This document shows, piece by piece, positions 4,740 through 36,354 of a stretch of 64,000 bases of DNA. Position 1 is the first letter of the stretch, and each line of letters opens with the position of its first letter. The notes beneath the pieces are model-generated. The model had not been told where the DNA came from and did no database searches. It was given only the letters and a program-made list of their open reading frames with translations. Source of the DNA: Geopsychrobacter electrodiphilus DSM 16401 (GTDB lineage Bacteria > Desulfobacterota > Desulfuromonadia > Desulfuromonadales > Geopsychrobacteraceae); the NCBI RefSeq assembly GCF_000384395.1, contig NZ_ARWE01000001.1, forward strand, positions 310,001 through 374,000, given 5' to 3'. The position numbers were made by a program, and so were the translations under genes.

Positions 4740-6731
4740 ATGCTGCCGAAAGAATTTACTGCCCCCATCGTCAAAGAATCGATCAATACCATTCGCTTGC
4801 TGGCGGCTGATGCCGTTGAAAAGGCCAACTCCGGCCATCCCGGAACGCCCATGGAAGCGGCCCCGATCGCCTACCTGCTGTTTAACCGTCATCTGCGACA
4901 TAATCCGGCCAATCCGAACTGGGCCGGGCGTGATCGGTTTGTGCTCTCGTGCGGACATGCGTCAGCCCTGATCTACAGTATGCTGCATCTGAGCGGTTAC
5001 GATCTGTCGCTGGATGATCTGCGGAATTTTCGTCAAGCAGGGAGCAAGACCCCAGGGCATCCCGAGTTCGGACATACACCCGGCGTCGAGACAACTACGG
5101 GTCCTCTGGGTCAGGGGGTGGCCGTGGCCGTCGGGATGGCAATGGGGGCGCAATTTCTGGCGCAACAGGTCGATGTTGAGCTGTTTGATTACCGAACCTG
5201 GGTGATCTGCAGTGACGGCGATCTGATGGAAGGGGTGTCGTCTGAGGCTTCTTCACTGGCAGGCCACCTGAAACTCGGCAATCTTAATTATATCTACCTG
5301 GACAACAAGATCACCATCGAAGGGGATACCTCTCTGGCTTTCAGCGAAGATGTCGGCACACGCTATCTGGCCTATGGCTGGCATGTGCAGCGGGTCGAAG
5401 GGGAGAATCTGGCCGAGATCGATACTGCGATGGAGCGTGCCAAAAATGACTCCCGTCCGTCACTGATCATCGCCCGTACGCATATCGGGATCGGGGCGCC
5501 AAACAAGCATGATAGCCACGAAGCCCACGGTGCACCCCTGGGCGCCGATGAACTGGCACTGACCAAACTGGCCTATGGCCGGGATCCCAAAGAGTGTTTC
5601 GTGGTGCCGGAGGGCGTGGCCGAGCATATGCGCGGTTCGCTGGCGCGTGGCGCTGAGGAGGAGGCCGTCTGGAACAAACAACTGACCCTGAAAAAATCGA
5701 TTCCGGCGGTCGCTGCCTGGCTGGACGTCGCCGATGGCGAACTGCCGGCAGGCTGGGGGACTGAATTGCCGGTCTTTACTCCTGCGGATGGCGCCAAGGC
5801 GACCCGCCAAGTCAGCGGAGCCGTGATTCAGGCTCTTGCCAAAAAGATACCGTTGCTGCTCGGCGGGTCGGCCGATCTGGCGCCGTCGAACAATACCGAA
5901 ATCAAAGGTGCTACATCCTGGCTCCCTGGGAAAAGTGGCCGAAATATCCACTACGGCATTCGTGAGCATGCCATGGGTTCGATCATGAATGGTTTAACCC
6001 ACACACCCGGGATCATCCCGTTTGCCGGGACCTTTTTTGTGTTTGCCGACTATATGCGCCCCCCAATCCGTCTGGCGGCGATGATGGGACTGGCTCCGAT
6101 CTACGTCATGACTCACGACTCTATCGGTCTGGGGGAGGATGGCCCGACCCATCAGCCGGTGGAGCATCTGGCCAGTTTGCGGGCGATGCCGAACCTGACC
6201 GTGATCCGTCCGGCCGACGCCAACGAGACTGTCGAAGCCTGGAAGGCGGCGATCGCCAATCGTAAGGGGCCGACCATGCTGGTCCTGACCCGGCAGGGGC
6301 TGCCCACTGTTGATCGCGCGGTTTATGGTGCGGCCAGCGGTCTGCAACAAGGCGGCTACGTGCTGGCGGCGGAAGAGGGCGAACTACAGATGATTTTGAT
6401 CGCCACCGGCTCCGAAGTCCAGCATGCAATGGCAGCACGCGCAGCCCTGCAGGCCGATGGGATCGGGACGCGTGTCGTCTCGCTGCCCAGCTGGGAGCTT
6501 TTCGAGACCCAGGCGCAGGCCTATCGTGATGCGGTGCTGCCGCCAGCCTGTACAAAGCGGGTGGCGATGGAAGCCGCATCAACCTTCGGCTGGGAACGCT
6601 ATATCGGTTGCGCCGGCACTGTGATCGGGATGACCAGCTATGGGGCGAGCGCCCCCGCGGGCGAGTTGATGGTGAGGTTTGGTTTTACCGCAGAGCATAT
6701 GATATCAGAGGCCAAAGCGCTTCTCGGCTGA
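4740..6731 (+). CDS. tkt: transketolase
   Basis: 663 aa, full length. A thiamine-diphosphate enzyme of the non-oxidative pentose phosphate pathway that moves two-carbon units between ketose and aldose phosphates. The N-terminal [20 protein letters not shown] motif, the ThDP/metal motif [14 protein letters not shown], the pyrimidine-domain [14 protein letters not shown] and the C-terminal ATGSEVQHA domain are all present. The start at ATG 4740 has AAAGGAG six bases upstream; an in-frame upstream codon at 4695 lacks such a site. The gene stands alone between two terminators. Confidence 0.96.
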
Positions 6732-28199: not shown

Positions 28200-30557
28200 A
28201 TGTTTTATAGGAACAGGCAACCAGGTTTTCAAGGGTTGATGGCAATTGTTTTTGTCCTGTGCGGAATTGCCACCACCGTGTTGTCGGCGCCGCTGCCGGG
28301 GGGGACGCTTGATCCGCTGACGATCCCCAAGTATGTCACGCCGCTGGTGATTCCACCTGAAATGCCCAAAAGCGCAGATGTTAATGTGCCGGTCGCGGAT
28401 TATAATATTGCGGTCCGCCAGTTTCAGCAGCAGATTCTTCCCGGGCTGCTGCCTCCCACCACAGTGTGGAGTTATGGCCGAGCTGAAGATGTTATCCCGT
28501 TAGGCTTCGTTGCCCCGGTGCCGCTGACCAGTAACATTTCTTTCAACTATCCCGCATTCACCATTGAGACCCAGTCAAAACCCGACACCACAACGCCGAC
28601 CAAGATCCGTTGGATTAATGATCTGGTCTATCCGGCAGGTCACCCAAATGCCGGCAACTATTTGCCACACCTTCTGACCAACACTGTTGATCAGACCCTG
28701 CATTGGGCTAATCCTGCGCAGGATGTTTGTCGTGCCGGGACGCCAATCAAGCGGACCGATTGTGCAACCAATAATCCATTGCCCTACACTGGACCAGTGC
28801 CAATTGTTACCCATGTTCATGGCTCTCACGTCAATCAGGAGTCGGACGGCTACCCCGAAGCCTGGTGGCTGCCGGGCGCTCCCGGTACCAAAGGAATTCC
28901 AGCCACCTACGCTGAGCACGGCACTCTGTACACTCAATATCTTGACACTGCCAACCCCGTCAACAACGTGCCAGGCTCGGCCTTCTATGCCTACGAAAAT
29001 GATCAGCCTGCAACCACCCTCTGGTATCATGACCATTCTCTGGGAATGACCAGACTTAATGTTTATGCCGGCCCTGCAGGCTTCTACCTGATCCGTGGGG
29101 GTGCCTATGATGGCGCCGTTGATGGGACAACAATGCCAACAAATGTGTCTGCAGTCCTGCCCGGTCCTGCACCTGCCGGTCTTGGTGACCCGAACTTTGA
29201 CGCGGCCTATCGGGCAAGTATCCGCGAGGTGCCGATTGTTATTCAGGATCGCTCCTTCAACCTCGACGGCTCGCTTTTTTACCCCGGCACTCGGGCCTTT
29301 TTTGACGGCTACACCGGGCCGACCGTTCCAAACTCGGATATAGCGCCGATCTGGAACCCTGAAGCCTTCTTCAACACCATGGTCGTCAACGGCACCACCT
29401 GGCCGACCTATACTGTTGCACCTGAGCGTTATCGTTTCCGTCTGCTCAACGGCAGCAACTCACGCTTCCTTAACCTGAGCATGTTCGAAGTGATCAAGCC
29501 TGGCGGCAAGACGCAGGGCAAGAAAAAGGTTAAAGCAGATAAGACCGGAGTGGAGGTTCCCTTCTACCAGATCGGGGCTGACCAGGGTTCCCTGCCTCAG
29601 GTCGTCATGATTTCCACCGGCTTTGCGACTCCCTTGCCAGGCGACGGGACAATGCCATTGGTCCTGACCGCAGTTCCCGCCGCCCAGCAGGCGTTATTGA
29701 TGACTCCTGCCGAGCGTGCTGACGTAATTGTTGATTTCAGTGCCTTTGTGCCTGGTACCATCATCCGGATGTACAATACCGCACCCGATGCGCCTTTCGG
29801 CGGATTCCCGGATGTGCCGGCCGATCCTTCGACTACTGGCCAGGTCATGGAGTTTGTCGTTGGTCCGGCACCGCTTGATCCTGCGACCGGTCTCGCGAGG
29901 ATCGACCCCAGCACCCCGGTTCAGAATCTGCGCCTCAACGCCGAACCGTCCAGTCTAAATCTGGGGACAACTGCCAAAAATGGTTCGCGTCAGGTCTCGC
30001 TTAATGAGGCTGGTTCCCATCAGGTTTGTGTGGCGATCAGTCCGCAAGGGACAATCACTGTGCTCGCCAGTTTCCCGACGGCCGATCCGAACATCGTTAC
30101 AACCTGTGCAGCGCTGGGTGGCGTGGAGATGGGCCCCAAAGAGGCCTTACTGGGGACTGTCGGGGTGACCGGTGGTGTTGCTTCCGGAATCCCACTGTCC
30201 TGGATGTCGCCAATCACAGAAAATCCACAGCTCGGTGCTGAGGAGACCTGGGAAATTTACAACTTTACGGTCGATGGCCATCCGATCCACCTCCACCTGG
30301 TGCGTTTCCAGGTAGAGGGACGTCAATTGCTCGATCCGCTGACCATGCAACCGGTTGGTACCATGACGCCAGCGACGCCTTCCGAGGCGGGCTGGAAGGA
30401 TACGGTTCTTGCTTATCCAGGTGAGGTAACACGGATTCGGGCAACCTTCGACAAAGAGGGCCTGTATGTTTGGCATTGCCACATTGTTGAACACGAAGAC
30501 AATGAGATGATGCGACCTTACTACGTTGGACCGCTCGCTAACTCACCGGTACCGTAA
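28200..30557 (+). CDS. periplasmic multicopper oxidase
   Basis: 785 aa. A signal peptide (to about residue 30, cleavage after VLSA) is followed by three cupredoxin domains of the CotA/bilirubin-oxidase type. Copper motifs: THVHGSHV, WYHDHSLGMTRLN, the C-terminal HPIHLHL, and HCHIVEHEDNEMM, supplying type 1, 2 and 3 ligands. A good AAGGAGG site precedes ATG 28200. Long for the family because of insertions around residues 430-450 (GGKTQGKKKVKADK) and 580-650. Related proteins in metal-reducing bacteria (OmpB/OmpC class) are secreted and used in metal oxide respiration; a role here in metal oxidation or reduction is inferred. Confidence 0.9.
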   Translation: MFYRNRQPGFQGLMAIVFVLCGIATTVLSAPLPGGTLDPLTIPKYVTPLVIPPEMPKSADVNVPVADYNIAVRQFQQQILPGLLPPTTVWSYGRAEDVIPLGFVAPVPLTSNISFNYPAFTIETQSKPDTTTPTKIRWINDLVYPAGHPNAGNYLPHLLTNTVDQTLHWANPAQDVCRAGTPIKRTDCATNNPLPYTGPVPIVTHVHGSHVNQESDGYPEAWWLPGAPGTKGIPATYAEHGTLYTQYLDTANPVNNVPGSAFYAYENDQPATTLWYHDHSLGMTRLNVYAGPAGFYLIRGGAYDGAVDGTTMPTNVSAVLPGPAPAGLGDPNFDAAYRASIREVPIVIQDRSFNLDGSLFYPGTRAFFDGYTGPTVPNSDIAPIWNPEAFFNTMVVNGTTWPTYTVAPERYRFRLLNGSNSRFLNLSMFEVIKPGGKTQGKKKVKADKTGVEVPFYQIGADQGSLPQVVMISTGFATPLPGDGTMPLVLTAVPAAQQALLMTPAERADVIVDFSAFVPGTIIRMYNTAPDAPFGGFPDVPADPSTTGQVMEFVVGPAPLDPATGLARIDPSTPVQNLRLNAEPSSLNLGTTAKNGSRQVSLNEAGSHQVCVAISPQGTITVLASFPTADPNIVTTCAALGGVEMGPKEALLGTVGVTGGVASGIPLSWMSPITENPQLGAEETWEIYNFTVDGHPIHLHLVRFQVEGRQLLDPLTMQPVGTMTPATPSEAGWKDTVLAYPGEVTRIRATFDKEGLYVWHCHIVEHEDNEMMRPYYVGPLANSPVP

Positions 30558-31542: not shown

Positions 31543-32103
31543 TTAACTCTGCCGCTTCCACAACAGATCATCCCGACCCTCATCATTGCACAGTCGCGCC
31601 CAGACAAAAAACAGGTCTGAAAGCCGGTTAAGGTAGAGCAGGCAACGCGGTTCGACGGCTTCGGTCTGCTGGAGCTTGACCACTTCACGTTCGGTGCGGC
31701 GGGTCACGGTGCGCGCCAGATGAAAAAGAGCCGAAGCTTTGCTGCCGCCGGGGAGAATAAAACTTTTGGCCGGTTGGATATTTTTGTTGCTCTCCTGCAG
31801 CCAGTCTTCCAGTTGTTTGATTTGCTGATCACCCAGTCCCCAGCCGTCAATCTTGGCTTTTGCGGCCGGTGGCGTGGCCAGTTCACTGCCGAGATCAAAC
31901 AGCTGGTTCTGGATCCGGCAGATTTTTTCAAACAGCCCATCCGGTAACTCTTCGCAGCGGATCAATCCAACCACTGAATTGAGTTCATCGACCGTGCCGT
32001 AGGCGCAGACGCGCGCTGAGCATTTGGCGACGCGGCTGCCGTCGACCAGGCTGGTTTGTCCTTTATCTCCGCCGCCGGTGGTGATGCGATCTAGTATTGG
32101 CAT
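31543..32103 (-). CDS. cob(I)alamin adenosyltransferase, PduO type
   Basis: 186 aa. Transfers adenosyl from ATP to cob(I)alamin to make coenzyme B12. The N-terminal ATP-binding motif TTGGGDKGQTSLVDGSRV and the trimer-core helices with RTVTRRTEREV and YLNRLSDLFFVWAR are diagnostic. ATG 32103 has AAGGAGG eight bases upstream. A single gene with no cobalamin genes or B12 riboswitch nearby. Confidence 0.93.
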   Translation of the reverse strand: MPILDRITTGGGDKGQTSLVDGSRVAKCSARVCAYGTVDELNSVVGLIRCEELPDGLFEKICRIQNQLFDLGSELATPPAAKAKIDGWGLGDQQIKQLEDWLQESNKNIQPAKSFILPGGSKASALFHLARTVTRRTEREVVKLQQTEAVEPRCLLYLNRLSDLFFVWARLCNDEGRDDLLWKRQS

Positions 32104-32264
32104 TGTTTGTCCTCCTTATTTTTATATGGGTATCATTTTGACATAGATTGAACAAAATCGTCAGGGGCCAGAGTGCAACCTCAATGATTCTCCTTTTTGT
32201 TTTGATTTTAAATGCTAATACCCACTCTTGCACAGTGGCGTTTCGCAAGGGTATAGTCTGCCCT

Positions 32265-33185
32265 ATGGAAAAAGCACTTCACCTTGAAAATTTGAACAAG
32301 GCATTTGGTGGCGTCCCCGCTGTCAAGAACTTGAGTTTCGATATCGAGCAGGGCGAAATCTTCGGCCTGCTCGGGCCGAATGGCGCGGGCAAGAGTACCA
32401 CCATCAATATGGTTTCCGGGATCACGCGGCTCGATTCAGGCCGGATTACAGCTTTTGGCTGTGATAACCACAGTCAGTATCGTCAGACCCGACGGATGCT
32501 CGGCGTGGTTCATCAGGAGATCGTCATCGATAACTTCTTCACCGTCGATCAGGCGTTACGCCTGCACGCCGGATATTACGGGGTTAAGGACGACCCCAAG
32601 TGGCGTCAGGAGTTGATCAATCGACTGGGGCTGGGACCACATCTGGACAAAGTAATGTTGAAACTTTCAGGCGGCATGAAGCGGCGCTTCATGATCGCCA
32701 AGGCGCTGATTCACCGGCCCCGACTCCTGATCCTCGATGAGCCGACCGCAGGGGTTGATGTCGAGCTGCGCCACAGCCTGTGGGAGTTCGTGCGTGAGAT
32801 CAATAATAACGGTACCACCATCCTGCTGACGACCCATTACCTCGAAGAAGCCGAGCAAATGTGTGGCCGGATTGCGATTATGAATCATGGTGAACTGGTG
32901 GCGCTGGAGCCGACACACGATCTGGTCCGACGCTTGTCGCGCCGTACCCTGAAACTCTGGCTGGAGCGACCGCTGGCCTCGATTCCGCCGGAACTAGAAG
33001 CCTATCATCCGCGGCTCGAAGGGGATAACCGCCAGTTGATCCTCTGTCTGCCGAATGATCAGGGCGTTGGAGATCTTCTGCACCGCCTCTCTGCCTTGCA
33101 TCTGGGAATCAATGATTTTGAGACCGAGCAGAGTGGGCTCGAAGAGGTTTTTCTGCAGCTGACCGGGGAAGGGACGCGGCCATGA
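32265..33185 (+). CDS. ABC transporter ATP-binding protein (YadG-like)
   Basis: 306 aa. Walker A GPNGAGKST, Q-loop VVHQEIV, signature LSGGMKRR, Walker B LLILDEP, and H-loop TTHYLEEAEQM, followed by a C-terminal regulatory extension usual in ABC-2 exporters. ATG 32265 gives the family N-terminus (MEKALHLENLNKAFGG); the ribosome site is weak. It overlaps the permease gene by four bases. E. coli YadG/YadH is the closest named pair I recognise; the substrate is unknown. Confidence 0.92.
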   Translation: MEKALHLENLNKAFGGVPAVKNLSFDIEQGEIFGLLGPNGAGKSTTINMVSGITRLDSGRITAFGCDNHSQYRQTRRMLGVVHQEIVIDNFFTVDQALRLHAGYYGVKDDPKWRQELINRLGLGPHLDKVMLKLSGGMKRRFMIAKALIHRPRLLILDEPTAGVDVELRHSLWEFVREINNNGTTILLTTHYLEEAEQMCGRIAIMNHGELVALEPTHDLVRRLSRRTLKLWLERPLASIPPELEAYHPRLEGDNRQLILCLPNDQGVGDLLHRLSALHLGINDFETEQSGLEEVFLQLTGEGTRP

Positions 33186-33973
33186 GCATCGGCAACGGAC
33201 AGGGGACGTTTCTGCCCTGGCTCCCCTTTTTTACGCTGCTGCGCAAGGAAATCCTGCGCTTCTGGCGGGTTTCATCCCAAACCCTGTTGACACCGATCAT
33301 CACCGCCTCGCTCTATCTATTTATCTTCGGCGCGACCCTGGGTCAGCGGATCCATGTGATCGAAGGGTTCAGCTATGCCCAGTTCGTTATCCCGGGTCTG
33401 GTTCTGATGGGGGTGATCAACAATTCGTTCGCCAATTGTTCGTCGTCACTCTTCATGTCACGTTATCTTGGCGGAATTGTCGATCTGCTGGTAACGCCGG
33501 TTTCTCCCTCACAATTCATCCTGGCCTATACCCTGGCGGCGATGCTGCGCGGTGCACTGGTGGGGATGGTGACCTGGCTGATCTCAACGATGTTTGCGAC
33601 GCTGCCATGGACCTCACCCTTGCTGGCGATATTGATGGCGATGCTGGCGAGCTTTATGTTCGCCCAGTTCGGGTTGATCGCAGCCCTCTATGCCAAAAAC
33701 TTCGATACCTTGTCGATGTTTACCAACTTTCTGCTCCTGCCGCTCATCTATCTGGGGGGCGTTTTTTATCCAATTTCAATTCTCCCCGCACCTTGGGGCG
33801 GTCTGTCGCATCTAAATCCGCTTTTTTATCTGATCGACGGTTTTCGTCATGCCATTCTCGGCGTGGGAGATATCAGCTTTGCCCTCGCCTTCGGGGTTAG
33901 TGGTCTGTTGGCGACTGCCCTGTTTATCTGGGCTGCCTGGTTGATTGGCAGCGGGAAAAGCTTGAGAAGCTGA
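33182..33973 (+). CDS. ABC-2 type transporter permease (YadH-like)
   Basis: 263 aa with six predicted membrane spans. ABC-2 permease features include LRKEILRFWRVSSQTLLTPI at the N-terminus, FSYAQFVIPGLVLMGVINN, and LPLIYLGGVFYPISILP near the C-terminus. Partner of the ATPase just upstream (4-base overlap). Probably exports a lipid, polysaccharide or drug-like substrate. It is followed 33 bases later by the TGA-containing redox gene, so the four genes to hslO may share a transcript. Confidence 0.92.
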   Translation: MSIGNGQGTFLPWLPFFTLLRKEILRFWRVSSQTLLTPIITASLYLFIFGATLGQRIHVIEGFSYAQFVIPGLVLMGVINNSFANCSSSLFMSRYLGGIVDLLVTPVSPSQFILAYTLAAMLRGALVGMVTWLISTMFATLPWTSPLLAILMAMLASFMFAQFGLIAALYAKNFDTLSMFTNFLLLPLIYLGGVFYPISILPAPWGGLSHLNPLFYLIDGFRHAILGVGDISFALAFGVSGLLATALFIWAAWLIGSGKSLRS

Positions 33974-34006
33974 CCCCCTGATTGTTTATCGGAGGAGATT
34001 GCGCAA

Positions 34007-34288
34007 ATGTTGACATCCGATTCCGCAAAGAAATATCGCGAATTTTACGATCAAGTGCGCGCCGATACTGCCCTGGATGATGAGACGACGATCATTGTCG
34101 GACTTGCTGCCGCGATGGCAGCGGGCTGTGAACCCTGAATGGAACATTACCTTGGCGTTGCCAGGGCGAAGGGGATCAGCGAAGCAAAAATCAGTGCGGT
34201 GCAGGGGATAGCGATGGCAGTCTGCGCTGGCAAGGTCAATGCCCAGATGCGACGGGTCGAAGCGAATATCATAAAAGTTAACGATTAA
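34007..34288 (+). CDS. AhpD-like (carboxymuconolactone decarboxylase family) selenoprotein, CxxU
   Basis: 93 codons starting at ATG 34007 (GGAGGAG upstream), with an in-frame TGA at codon 44 (34136-34138). Read through, the product continues 49 more residues to TAA 34286. The motif is GCEP-U-MEHYLGVARAKGIS, matching the Cys-x-x-Cys...His redox motif of small AhpD-like proteins with Sec for the second Cys. A stem CCTTGGC/GCCAGGG (34150-34166) with loop GTT, G first, begins 11 bases after the TGA and puts the loop 18 bases away, as bacterial SECIS elements require. Both halves are in one frame, flanked by yadH-like and hslO with tight spacing. Alternative: a Cys-to-stop pseudogene. Confidence 0.75.
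34150..34166 (+). promoter_or_regulatory. SECIS-like hairpin after the in-frame TGA
   Basis: A seven-base-pair stem CCTTGGC/GCCAGGG (one G-U pair) with triloop GTT. Loop distance from TGA is 18 bases, and G is the first loop base, consistent with bacterial SelB-binding hairpins. Confidence 0.6.
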
Positions 34289-34300
34289 CGATGGAGAACT

Positions 34301-35167
34301 ATGCAGGAACATCTGGTACGTGTGGTTACTGAAGACGGGTTGTTTCGTGCCTCCGCTGCCGATACAACCCAATTGGTCAAAGAGATCTGTCGGCGTCAGC
34401 AGGTGGATTTGACTGCCAAAGTGGCACTGGGCCGTCTGTTGACCGGTGCGGCACTGATGAGCAGTCTGCTGAAAGGACGACAGCGTCTGGCGCTGGTGGT
34501 TGAAGGGAATGGTCCGTTGGGTCGGTTGATGGTCGAGACCGATGCGAAAGGGGGGATTCGCGGGAAAGTCCAAAATCCGCTGGCCGGGCTGCCTCCGCGC
34601 AATGGTCGCTTTGATGTTGCCGGTGCCGTGGGGCGGGCCGGGTTTCTGCATGTGATCAAGGATCTCGGTTTAAAAGAACCATATCGCAGTATGGTGCAGC
34701 TACAGACCAGCGAGATCGGTGACGATCTTGCCTGGTATCTGACCCATTCCGAGCAGGTTCCCTCCTGTGTCGCACTCGGTGTTGAGTTGGATGCCCAAGG
34801 AGAAATCGCCGCGGCGGGTGGGTTTATGGTACAGGCATTACCGCCGGGGGATCAGCTCTCAATTGATCGGCTTGTGGACCATTTGCACGGATTTCCCCCG
34901 ACGACCAGTCTGCTGCGCCAGGGGGTCGAGCCGACCGCGATTCTTCATAAGGTCCTGGATGGGCAGTCGTTTTCCGTTCTGCAACGCAGTGAACTTGTGT
35001 TTAACTGTCCCTGTAGCCGCGAGACGATCGCCGATGTCCTGGCAGGATTGGGGGCCGTTGAGCTGGATGCGATGATCCAGGAGCAGGGTGGTGGTGAAGT
35101 GATCTGTGATTATTGTCGGGAGGTCTATCGTTATAACCGGACACAACTGGAAGAGTTGCGTGGCTGA
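34301..35167 (+). CDS. hslO: Hsp33 redox-regulated chaperone
   Basis: 288 aa. A cytosolic holdase activated by oxidation. The zinc-binding cysteines form the expected CxC and CxxC pairs, FNCPCSRE and ICDYCREVY, near the C-terminus. The N-terminal domain has the family segments ALGRLLTGAALMSSLLKG and LMVETDAKGGIRGKV. It begins 12 bases after the putative selenoprotein, so the two are likely coexpressed and share an oxidative-stress theme. Confidence 0.95.
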   Translation: MQEHLVRVVTEDGLFRASAADTTQLVKEICRRQQVDLTAKVALGRLLTGAALMSSLLKGRQRLALVVEGNGPLGRLMVETDAKGGIRGKVQNPLAGLPPRNGRFDVAGAVGRAGFLHVIKDLGLKEPYRSMVQLQTSEIGDDLAWYLTHSEQVPSCVALGVELDAQGEIAAAGGFMVQALPPGDQLSIDRLVDHLHGFPPTTSLLRQGVEPTAILHKVLDGQSFSVLQRSELVFNCPCSRETIADVLAGLGAVELDAMIQEQGGGEVICDYCREVYRYNRTQLEELRG

Positions 35168-35491
35168 CCGCAAACTCCGCGACCAACATTAACAAGTTGT
35201 TTACCCGGAAAAGAGACAAACAGTGTTTGACGATAGCAGCGCCTCGGCGTTGGTCTGCGAAACAGACTGATTGTATACCTTAATAGTCCTCATTGAACTT
35301 CAAAATCCTTGTAAAATCATGGCTTAAGCAAGAACTCTGAATCATGGTTATTGCATACAGTATACTGTATTTTTCCCTTGACTTGTTGGGGGGATTATCC
35401 TAATTTTCGTGACGCTGTGGCGTTCGCGCCGAGGGTCCATCTCTGTCTGGTGAATCTCTGTCTATTGTAAGTTTTTGAAGGAGCGGGTTTT
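35168..35491 (+). promoter_or_regulatory. nuo operon control region with palindromic operator
   Basis: 324 bases with no gene. A sigma-70 promoter, TTGACT (35378-35383), 17 bases, TAATTT (35401-35406), stands about 85 bases before nuoA. Eight bases upstream of its -35 is a perfect 16-base palindrome ATACAGTATACTGTAT (35355-35370), well placed to bind a dimeric regulator. A smaller hairpin GGTCTG/CAGACT lies at about 35255-35272. The identity of the regulator is not visible. Confidence 0.6.
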
Positions 35492-35848
35492 ATGCTTGAG
35501 AGCTATCTGCCGATTCTCGTCCTGATCGGAATCGCCTTTGCTTTTGCACTTGCGGTGGTTGTTCTGTCGCGGCTGGTCGGGCCAAACAAGCCGAATGACA
35601 TTAAACTGGCTCCCTATGAGTGCGGGATGCCGCTTATCGGTACGGCCCAGGATCGGTTCTCGATCAAGTTTTATATCATTGCGATGCTCTTTATCCTGTT
35701 TGATATTGAAGCAGTCTTCCTTTATCCCTGGGCGGTCATGTATAAGCGTTTGGGGATTTTTGGGTTTGTCGAGATGGGAGTGTTTATTATTATCCTCCTG
35801 GTCGGCTTCGCTTATGTGTGGAAAAAAGGAGCTCTGGAATGGGAATAG
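35492..35848 (+). CDS. nuoA: NADH-quinone oxidoreductase subunit A
   Basis: 118 aa with three membrane spans; small membrane subunit of complex I at the junction with the peripheral arm. It contains the conserved loop [24 protein letters not shown] and the acidic [13 protein letters not shown] helix. Preceded by GAAGGAG. First gene of the 14-gene operon; overlaps nuoB by ten bases. Confidence 0.96.
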
Positions 35849-36354
35849 AGCAGTCAAAAACTCTTGGAAGTGGCTTTGTAACCACGAGCCTCGATAAATT
35901 GGTGAACTGGTCACGGGCCAAGTCTATGTGGCCGATGACTTTCGGTCTGGCCTGCTGTGCCATCGAGATGATGGCCACCGGTGCTGCCCGTTTTGACCTC
36001 GACCGCATGGGGATTCTGTTTCGTGCCTCACCGCGTCAGGCCGACGTCATCATCATTGCCGGGACTGTCACCAAAAAAATGATGCCGGTCATCAAGACGG
36101 TTTATGAGCAGATGCCAGAGCCTCGTTATGTTATCGCTATGGGGGCTTGCGCCTCATCGGGCGGGATTTTTGACACCTACAGCGTGGTGCAGGGTGTTGA
36201 TGAGTTTCTGCCGGTTGATGTGTATATTCCCGGTTGCCCGCCAAGACCAGAGGGGCTGCTCTATGGTCTGATGAAGTTGCAAGAGAAGATCATGAAGGAA
36301 CGCAACAGCTTCGGTAACGCGATCGGCGTTGGTGAGATTGTTAACGAGGCCTGA
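35839..36354 (+). CDS. nuoB: NADH-quinone oxidoreductase subunit B
   Basis: 171 aa. Carries the terminal [4Fe-4S] cluster N2 next to the quinone site: Cys residues in [20 protein letters not shown] and IPGCPPRPE. The start at ATG 35839 has AAAGGAG seven bases upstream, overlapping nuoA. Ends 34 bases before nuoC. Confidence 0.97.

Follow-up and report, generated by a model that had tools for sequence, protein, structure and literature searches.

A predicted small selenoprotein gene of the CMD/AhpD-like type, cmdU, in Geopsychrobacter electrodiphilus and its neighborhoods in related bacteria

Under the standard code, a short reading frame of Geopsychrobacter electrodiphilus DSM 16401 is cut at a TGA lying in the middle of what otherwise reads as one small protein. 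Does this gene, here called cmdU, encode a selenoprotein, or is it a broken gene or a pair of overlapping ones, and what might its product do? We present here an analysis of the locus and its relatives. The window is the whole stretch of DNA analyzed, 64,000 nucleotides of contig NZ_ARWE01000001.1 (positions 310,001 to 374,000), and positions are those of the window unless a genome position is given. The result is a further selenoprotein subfamily, well supported, whose members would be cut short by standard-code translation; it is nearly fixed for selenocysteine (Sec) among the loci found and has an unusually clear dual-coding SECIS element.

The frame and its in-frame TGA

The cmdU frame opens with ATG at 34007, runs for 93 codons, and closes with a TAA ending at 34288. 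Its single in-frame TGA gives the motif Cys41-Glu-Pro-Sec44-Met-Glu-His47-Tyr48, and the peptide around it reads GCEP-U-MEHYLGVAR. The original prediction, made from the DNA letters alone, had described one 93-codon frame with a lone TGA at 34136 and the motif GCEP-Sec-MEH, as is read directly from the sequence; the open reading frame calls agree with it that the standard code splits the frame there. The features of the locus are as follows.

32148..33973, + strand: ABC exporter (ATPase 32148-33185, ABC-2 type permease 33182-33973)
33991..33997, + strand: Shine-Dalgarno-like GGAGGAG, 9 nt 5′ of the cmdU ATG
34007..34288, + strand: predicted CMD/AhpD-like selenoprotein gene (cmdU), 93 aa; Pfam CMD 4.2e-10
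34136..34138, + strand: in-frame TGA, predicted to be decoded as selenocysteine (Sec44); family-wide TGA, Cys in distant homologues
34150..34166, + strand: predicted bacterial SECIS hairpin, 7-pair stem CCTTGGC/GCCAGGG, loop GTT
34301..35167, + strand: hsp33 (hslO); NF001033 278.6 bits (cut-off 244), PF01430

A Shine-Dalgarno sequence had been placed ahead of the ATG, where GGAGGAG lies, and the neighbors had been named as an exporter and Hsp33; HMM searches upheld both identities (for the exporter, ABC_tran 112.8 bits, ABC2_membrane 125.6 bits, and NF011648 252.3 bits). The permease gene ends 33 nt before cmdU, and hsp33 starts 12 nt past the cmdU stop. Given the permease end at 33973 and the hsp33 start at 34301, the ABC ATPase, permease, cmdU, and hsp33 genes look like one predicted transcription unit. 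Promoter and terminator consensus scans around cmdU scored at shuffle level. The window also contains a multicopper-oxidase-type frame (Cu-oxidase_2; 28200-30557), a PduO-type cobalamin adenosyltransferase gene (31543-32103, − strand), and, from 35492 onward past hsp33, the gene for NADH dehydrogenase subunit A, the first of an apparent nuo operon.

Homologues were sought in 60 genomes, that of G. electrodiphilus included. A protein match was found in 27; the matched place contains a single TGA in 26 of them, and the remaining match, a remote homologue, has no stop. Removing remote or unrelated loci (L027 and L036) and nine exact copies from the 51 loci collected left 40 nonredundant loci, from Desulfuromonadales plus single MAGs titled Neomarinimicrobiota, Phycisphaerae, and Thermoanaerobaculia. 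TGA occupies the same codon in 38 of the 40, the window's own included. The two others have TTA (Leu; L045, 1597-1599) and CGA (Arg; L060, 4016-4018), each with an intact hairpin, a pattern of TGA replaced and SECIS kept that may reflect recent loss or assembly error. The L045 gene sits in genome G134, and G135 of the same genus (g53) has TGA (L134).

A profile of the family matched 51 of the 136 genomes of the order, which by our reading of the matches comprise 45 free-standing cmdU genes, 5 long-frame relatives, and 1 fragment (in G033), and 37 of 395 genomes of the phylum. One homologue (L135; G129:C229:1448-1861, − strand) lies in two pieces about 140 nt apart, through an insertion or an assembly fault. 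Homologues with Cys at the TGA position, the search for which had been proposed as a check, were found: L111 (CYPC, 97 bits), L112 (CPAC), L113 (CRHC), and L114 (CKHC) are free-standing and stand at larger distance, and L126 (CEPC) has a longer frame.

Two readings would do without selenocysteine. The first, in which an ordinary nonsense mutation broke the gene, agrees with the standard code's stop at TGA and with one relative (L136, the G033 fragment) that looks frameshifted. Yet the same codon is TGA in nearly every locus, both sides of it are conserved, and the hairpin covaries as described below; the scattered stops named beforehand as the mark of a pseudogene are absent from the homologues, which have one TGA in one place. 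We consider a pseudogene exceedingly improbable. The second reading has a 43-residue peptide ending at the TGA and a restart at the overlapping TGAATG that yields a 49-residue protein, and in the window an ATG does directly follow the TGA, an overlap that often couples translation. However, ATG follows the TGA in only 20 of the 40 loci, and 7 of the 40 have at this place a codon that would be an unusual start (ATC, ACN, or GCG). The CMD match, moreover, covers residues 6-75, across the TGA, in keeping with the earlier remark that both halves keep family-like sequence, and a stem-loop is conserved at SECIS distance. Two separate genes are thus very improbable.

The hairpin and the selenocysteine machinery

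Bacterial SECIS elements are stem-loops that closely follow the UGA and have a G in the loop. In cmdU, the stem arms (34150-34156 and 34160-34166) enclose the loop GTT at 34157-34159, 11 bases separating the TGA from the stem and 18 from the loop. A seven-pair stem with this loop, 18 bases after the TGA, had been predicted, and that figure is correct for the distance to the loop. From the window sequence alone, RNAfold returned exactly this 7-pair hairpin at -10.5 kcal/mol. That stability is ordinary for a sequence of this composition (z -0.69; 41 of 200 shuffles did as well), and an Rfam search of 33000-36000 gave no match up to E 1, so the hairpin alone is weak evidence and the comparative evidence carries the SECIS case.

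Synonymous constraint was assessed by setting codon choice in each column against the family's codon usage in the rest of the gene (77 columns, 300 simulations). The largest excesses fell on codons +6, +9, +8, +4, and +5 after the TGA (ranks 1-5 of 77, each reached in 0/300 simulations); columns +19, -29, and +14 likewise gave 0/300, with far smaller excess. Codon +7 (Val), whose third position supplies the last base of the loop, varies freely (GTT 10, GTC 11, GTG 18, GTA 1). Pairing along the 7-pair stem reaches 99.6% over 39 distinct rows. A second set of 53 TGA-bearing rows omitted L008 (a copy), L045, and L060 and added 16 rows, L135 not fitting the search pattern; in it, 99.2% of 371 cells are paired, with two-sided changes in 5 of the 7 pairs. 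Sliding the partner by 1-3 columns left at most 61.7% paired, and shuffles equaled the observed covariation in 0/500 cases on pairs, cells, and score and in 1/500 on pair types. In L021, where Gly is changed to Ser, a G-C pair of the stem becomes A-U, and in L109, the stem is rebuilt with different residues around a GGG loop. Selection on the stem-loop as a SECIS element is strongly supported by these comparisons; the claimed fit to bacterial SECIS rules agrees with synonymous constraint and covariation, the single-sequence fold not being significant.

The genome of G. electrodiphilus (G000), one contig of 4.24 Mb, encodes a tRNA-Sec (66.4 bits; Rfam cut-off 47) and carries selA (543.5 bits), selB (359.3 bits), and selD (343.7 bits) as neighbors at 1185320-1189634. 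Each of selA, selB, selC, and selD thereby scores above its cut-off, a check that had been suggested with the original prediction. The selD gene (G000:C1:1188717-1189634, + strand) has one in-frame TGA of its own, so SelD itself is probably a selenoprotein. Elsewhere, yedF (L149 8078-8662; G000:C1:2640077-2640661, + strand; TIGR03527, 190.1 bits) ends 9 nt before the tRNA-Sec gene (2640671-2640762), forming a tight yedF-selC pair. No selA was found in 3 of the 45 order genomes with cmdU (G015, G002, and G008), all draft assemblies.

The TGA is read here as selenocysteine because of its conservation at one codon, the selection on the SECIS hairpin, the Cys homologues, and the Sec machinery. On this comparative sequence evidence, 34007-34288 is almost certainly a genuine small selenoprotein gene, and its assignment together with a SelB/SECIS insertion mechanism is very probable. 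In this mechanism, the hairpin 11 nt downstream, itself within the coding sequence, would direct SelB with Sec-tRNA to decode the UGA at 34136 as Sec44.

Neighborhoods and possible functions

The ABC permease and hsp33 genes flank cmdU in all 23 carrier genomes of the window's family (f1). In two other families, cmdU lies directly upstream of selA (f12, 15/15 carriers; f17, 3/3 carriers), with 55-114 nt between the two matches in these 18 of the order's 45 carrier genomes. Where selA-linked loci reach far enough, selB and selD come after selA, and one (L055) has yedF upstream of cmdU. The remaining 4 of 45 carriers (two in f3, one each in f6 and f10) have neither main neighborhood in the stretches examined. 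The exporter/Hsp33 neighborhood is a trait of the window's family, not of the whole protein family. Other neighbors include MscL (L142), a thioesterase domain (L141), and Usp (L060), with a Nudix-like protein (L047) and a patatin-like protein (L145) below cut-off; neighbor proteins without a Pfam family occur at L009, L139, L057, L059, and L049, as does one of the two neighbors at L142 and one of the two at L060. A protein tree, built on few columns with L025, L026, and L060 left out and weak at many of its branch points, places the selA-linked members together (94/93); on it, the hsp33 linkage requires two changes.

The phylum sample also supplied ten Sec-bearing loci from outside the order (L137-L146, 6.8-15 kb each), and four of these adjoin hgcAB (three loci) or arsM (two loci). 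In L137 and L143, hgcA-hgcB lies directly 5′ of cmdU; in L138, arsM is 5′ and hgcA-hgcB 3′ on the same strand; and L144 has the order arsR-arsM-cmdU-acr3. A weak partial ArsM match in L143 (35%) was not counted. The same ars cluster of L144 has another CMD gene past acr3, this one of the Cys type (CIPC motif; 5967-6227, − strand). The other six loci have no mercury or arsenic gene in the stretches examined (tblastn, 1e-6). In methylators, arsM, acr3, and ArsR genes have been described near hgcAB (PMC7438021), and the terms AhpD and carboxymuconolactone are absent from the available text of that paper.

The G. electrodiphilus genome carries hgcA (G000:C1:1681215-1682192, − strand; 423.6 bits, cut-off 275), which makes the organism a predicted mercury methylator; its five ArsM matches are weak, none over cut-off. 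Across genomes, hgcA occurs in 31/42 selA-bearing order genomes with cmdU versus 27/72 without (Fisher 2e-4), in 31/45 versus 32/91 when all 136 order genomes are counted, and in 10/12 versus 117/395 in the phylum sample (hypergeometric 1.4e-4). We do not claim a co-occurrence of hgcA and cmdU, since the signal faded once stratified by family (P 0.065).

How these neighborhoods bear on function can be read in several ways. One is that, in the selA-linked families, cmdU serves as a selenium-sensing leader, Sec insertion at its UGA and SECIS adjusting translation of selA-selB-selD. In Escherichia coli, a SECIS-like element before selAB regulates it. The place of cmdU directly before selA in 18/18 carriers of two families, the selB and selD genes that follow, and the yedF gene of L055 are consistent with such a role. 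Against it, the window's own locus falls outside its scope, selA being 0.84 Mb away, and the protein itself is conserved, which makes cmdU more than a leader. A leader function is unlikely.

Alternatively, the neighborhoods may be historical, selenoprotein genes having moved together with selA-selB in one transfer unit and the remaining neighbors being incidental. An available passage of PMC1794560 describes fdhA flanking selA-selB-selC and reads the arrangement as a horizontal-transfer unit, and the selA-linked members of cmdU form one group in the tree, so their linkage may be a single event. The retention of cmdU beside selA throughout both families argues otherwise, as do fusions of the domain to two kinds of methyltransferase. 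We treat a purely historical origin as possible, if not the favored reading.

In a third reading, cmdU would serve organometal(loid) methylation as a dedicated Sec accessory and would, in addition, have become part of the selenocysteine operon. Next to hgcAB or arsM, its Cys-Sec pair would hold or reduce mercury or arsenic; at the head of selA-selB-selD, its UGA and SECIS would allow the whole Sec machinery to be tuned by the supply of selenium. Such a dedicated role is likewise unlikely.

The simplest account has a small Cys-Sec redox domain joining methyltransferases and redox systems, either as a neighbor or by fusion. The product, predicted to be one helical domain of the CMD fold in which Cys41-x-x-Sec44 might pair as a selenenylsulfide, might act as a selenol/thiol partner (a reductant or soft-metal(loid) handler) of co-expressed systems, which by lineage would be methyltransferases (fused, or arsM- or hgcAB-linked), the Sec-synthesis operon, or Hsp33 with the exporter. 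This partner role, drawn from the neighbors only, is tentative: neighbors differ between lineages, and the four order genomes with neither main neighborhood also weigh on it, as do the six loci outside the order that lack a mercury or arsenic gene in the stretches examined, the absence of an ArsM match over cut-off in G. electrodiphilus, and the faded hgcA signal. The selABD, hgcAB, and arsM links offer testable leads to accessory proteins of mercury and arsenic methylation and to bacterial tuning of Sec synthesis; should they be historical only, cmdU remains a tidy annotation correction.

Fold and comparison with known relatives

With its TGA read as Cys, the read-through protein matches Pfam CMD (PF02627) at 39.9 bits (cut-off 23). 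The AlphaFold model is all-helical, with four helices (mean pLDDT 90.1, pTM 0.71). Foldseek against the PDB gave the CMD proteins 3bey, 1vke/1p8c, and RclX (7y4r) as the best matches (lowest E 1.1e-3), with AhpD lower in the ranking, and VIA-align ranked 3bey first (Z 11.4; 86 residues aligned, 3.0 Å) and RclX 7y4r next (Z 10.7). For a helical model, a Z of 11.4 may reflect a common arrangement only and needs a sequence match alongside; the family profile matches 3bey at 1.1e-7, with CxxU aligned on CxxC.

AhpD-type peroxidases have peroxidase or disulfide-reductase activity with their partners, and Hsp33 is a redox-activated chaperone. An AhpD-like peroxidase in which the Cys-Sec pair and a catalytic His reduce hydroperoxides would fit the shared superfamily and predicted fold, RclX among the closest folds, and the apparent operon with Hsp33. 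In five printed PDB alignments (four different proteins), however, the motif is CxxCxxxH, the His lying four past the second Cys, and the cmdU product lacks this motif: Tyr48 stands at the AhpD His position (+4), and His47 at +3 is replaced by Tyr in a few family members. The fused relatives in the printed alignment have no His at +3 or +4. A peroxidase is accordingly somewhat doubtful. On the modeled structure and sequence motifs, fold and redox pair fit AhpD and the His does not. The original prediction of an AhpD-like CxxU selenoprotein therefore stands for fold, superfamily, and CxxU, with Tyr48 at the AhpD His position; its family motif CxxC...H is kept in Cys-x-x-Sec and in the presence of a His, which comes one residue too early.

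CxxU selenoproteins of the CMD or AhpD kind are already in surveys, so the kind is known: CMD-like and AhpD-like 2 selenoproteins were found in the Sargasso Sea and GOS surveys (PMC1088965, PMC2398784, and PMC13188914, as far as their available passages go). As described there, these proteins (table entry MBW1767730.1) combine Pfam CMD (PF02627) with CxxU as cmdU does, a likeness by description only and not by sequence. The survey passages on them mention no selA, hgcAB, arsM, or hsp33 neighborhood, and among the matches listed, none linked a selenoprotein of the CMD/AhpD kind with selA, hgcAB, or arsM; the novelty of these cmdU links is unproven. The distant AhpD homologue of Geobacter, GSU3128 (NF041047), is likewise described in the passage available as a small AhpD-type protein with CxxU (PMC13188914), but cmdU scores only 19.3 bits against that model (cut-off 110).

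No NCBIfam model claims the cmdU protein in an NCBIfam search. The nearest are NF041537 ArsM_AhpD_UU (63.0 bits, cut-off 510) and NF045649 MduS (58.6 bits, cut-off 380), both matched over their AhpD domain, which is at the C-terminal side and has CxxU at the same place as in cmdU. The fused relatives themselves score 643.0 bits (MduS) and 523.8 bits (ArsM_AhpD_UU). Of the five long-frame relatives in the order, the two scanned (L129 and L130) are MduS and not ArsM fusions; among the long-frame relatives scanned, only L119, from outside the order, is ArsM_AhpD_UU.

AhpD of Mycobacterium tuberculosis (1gu9/1knc), TM1620 (1vke/1p8c), the MTH protein O27018 (3bey), and RclX (7y4r) have their fold in common with cmdU, and the CxxC of 3bey, 7y4r, 1vke, 2ouw, and 1p8c aligns with its CxxU. 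In contrast to AhpD, TM1620, O27018, and RclX, cmdU has Sec for the second Cys and Tyr at the His position. Unlike ArsM_AhpD_UU and MduS, from which it also differs in the stem-loop letters past the TGA, cmdU is a free-standing 93-residue domain without a methyltransferase.
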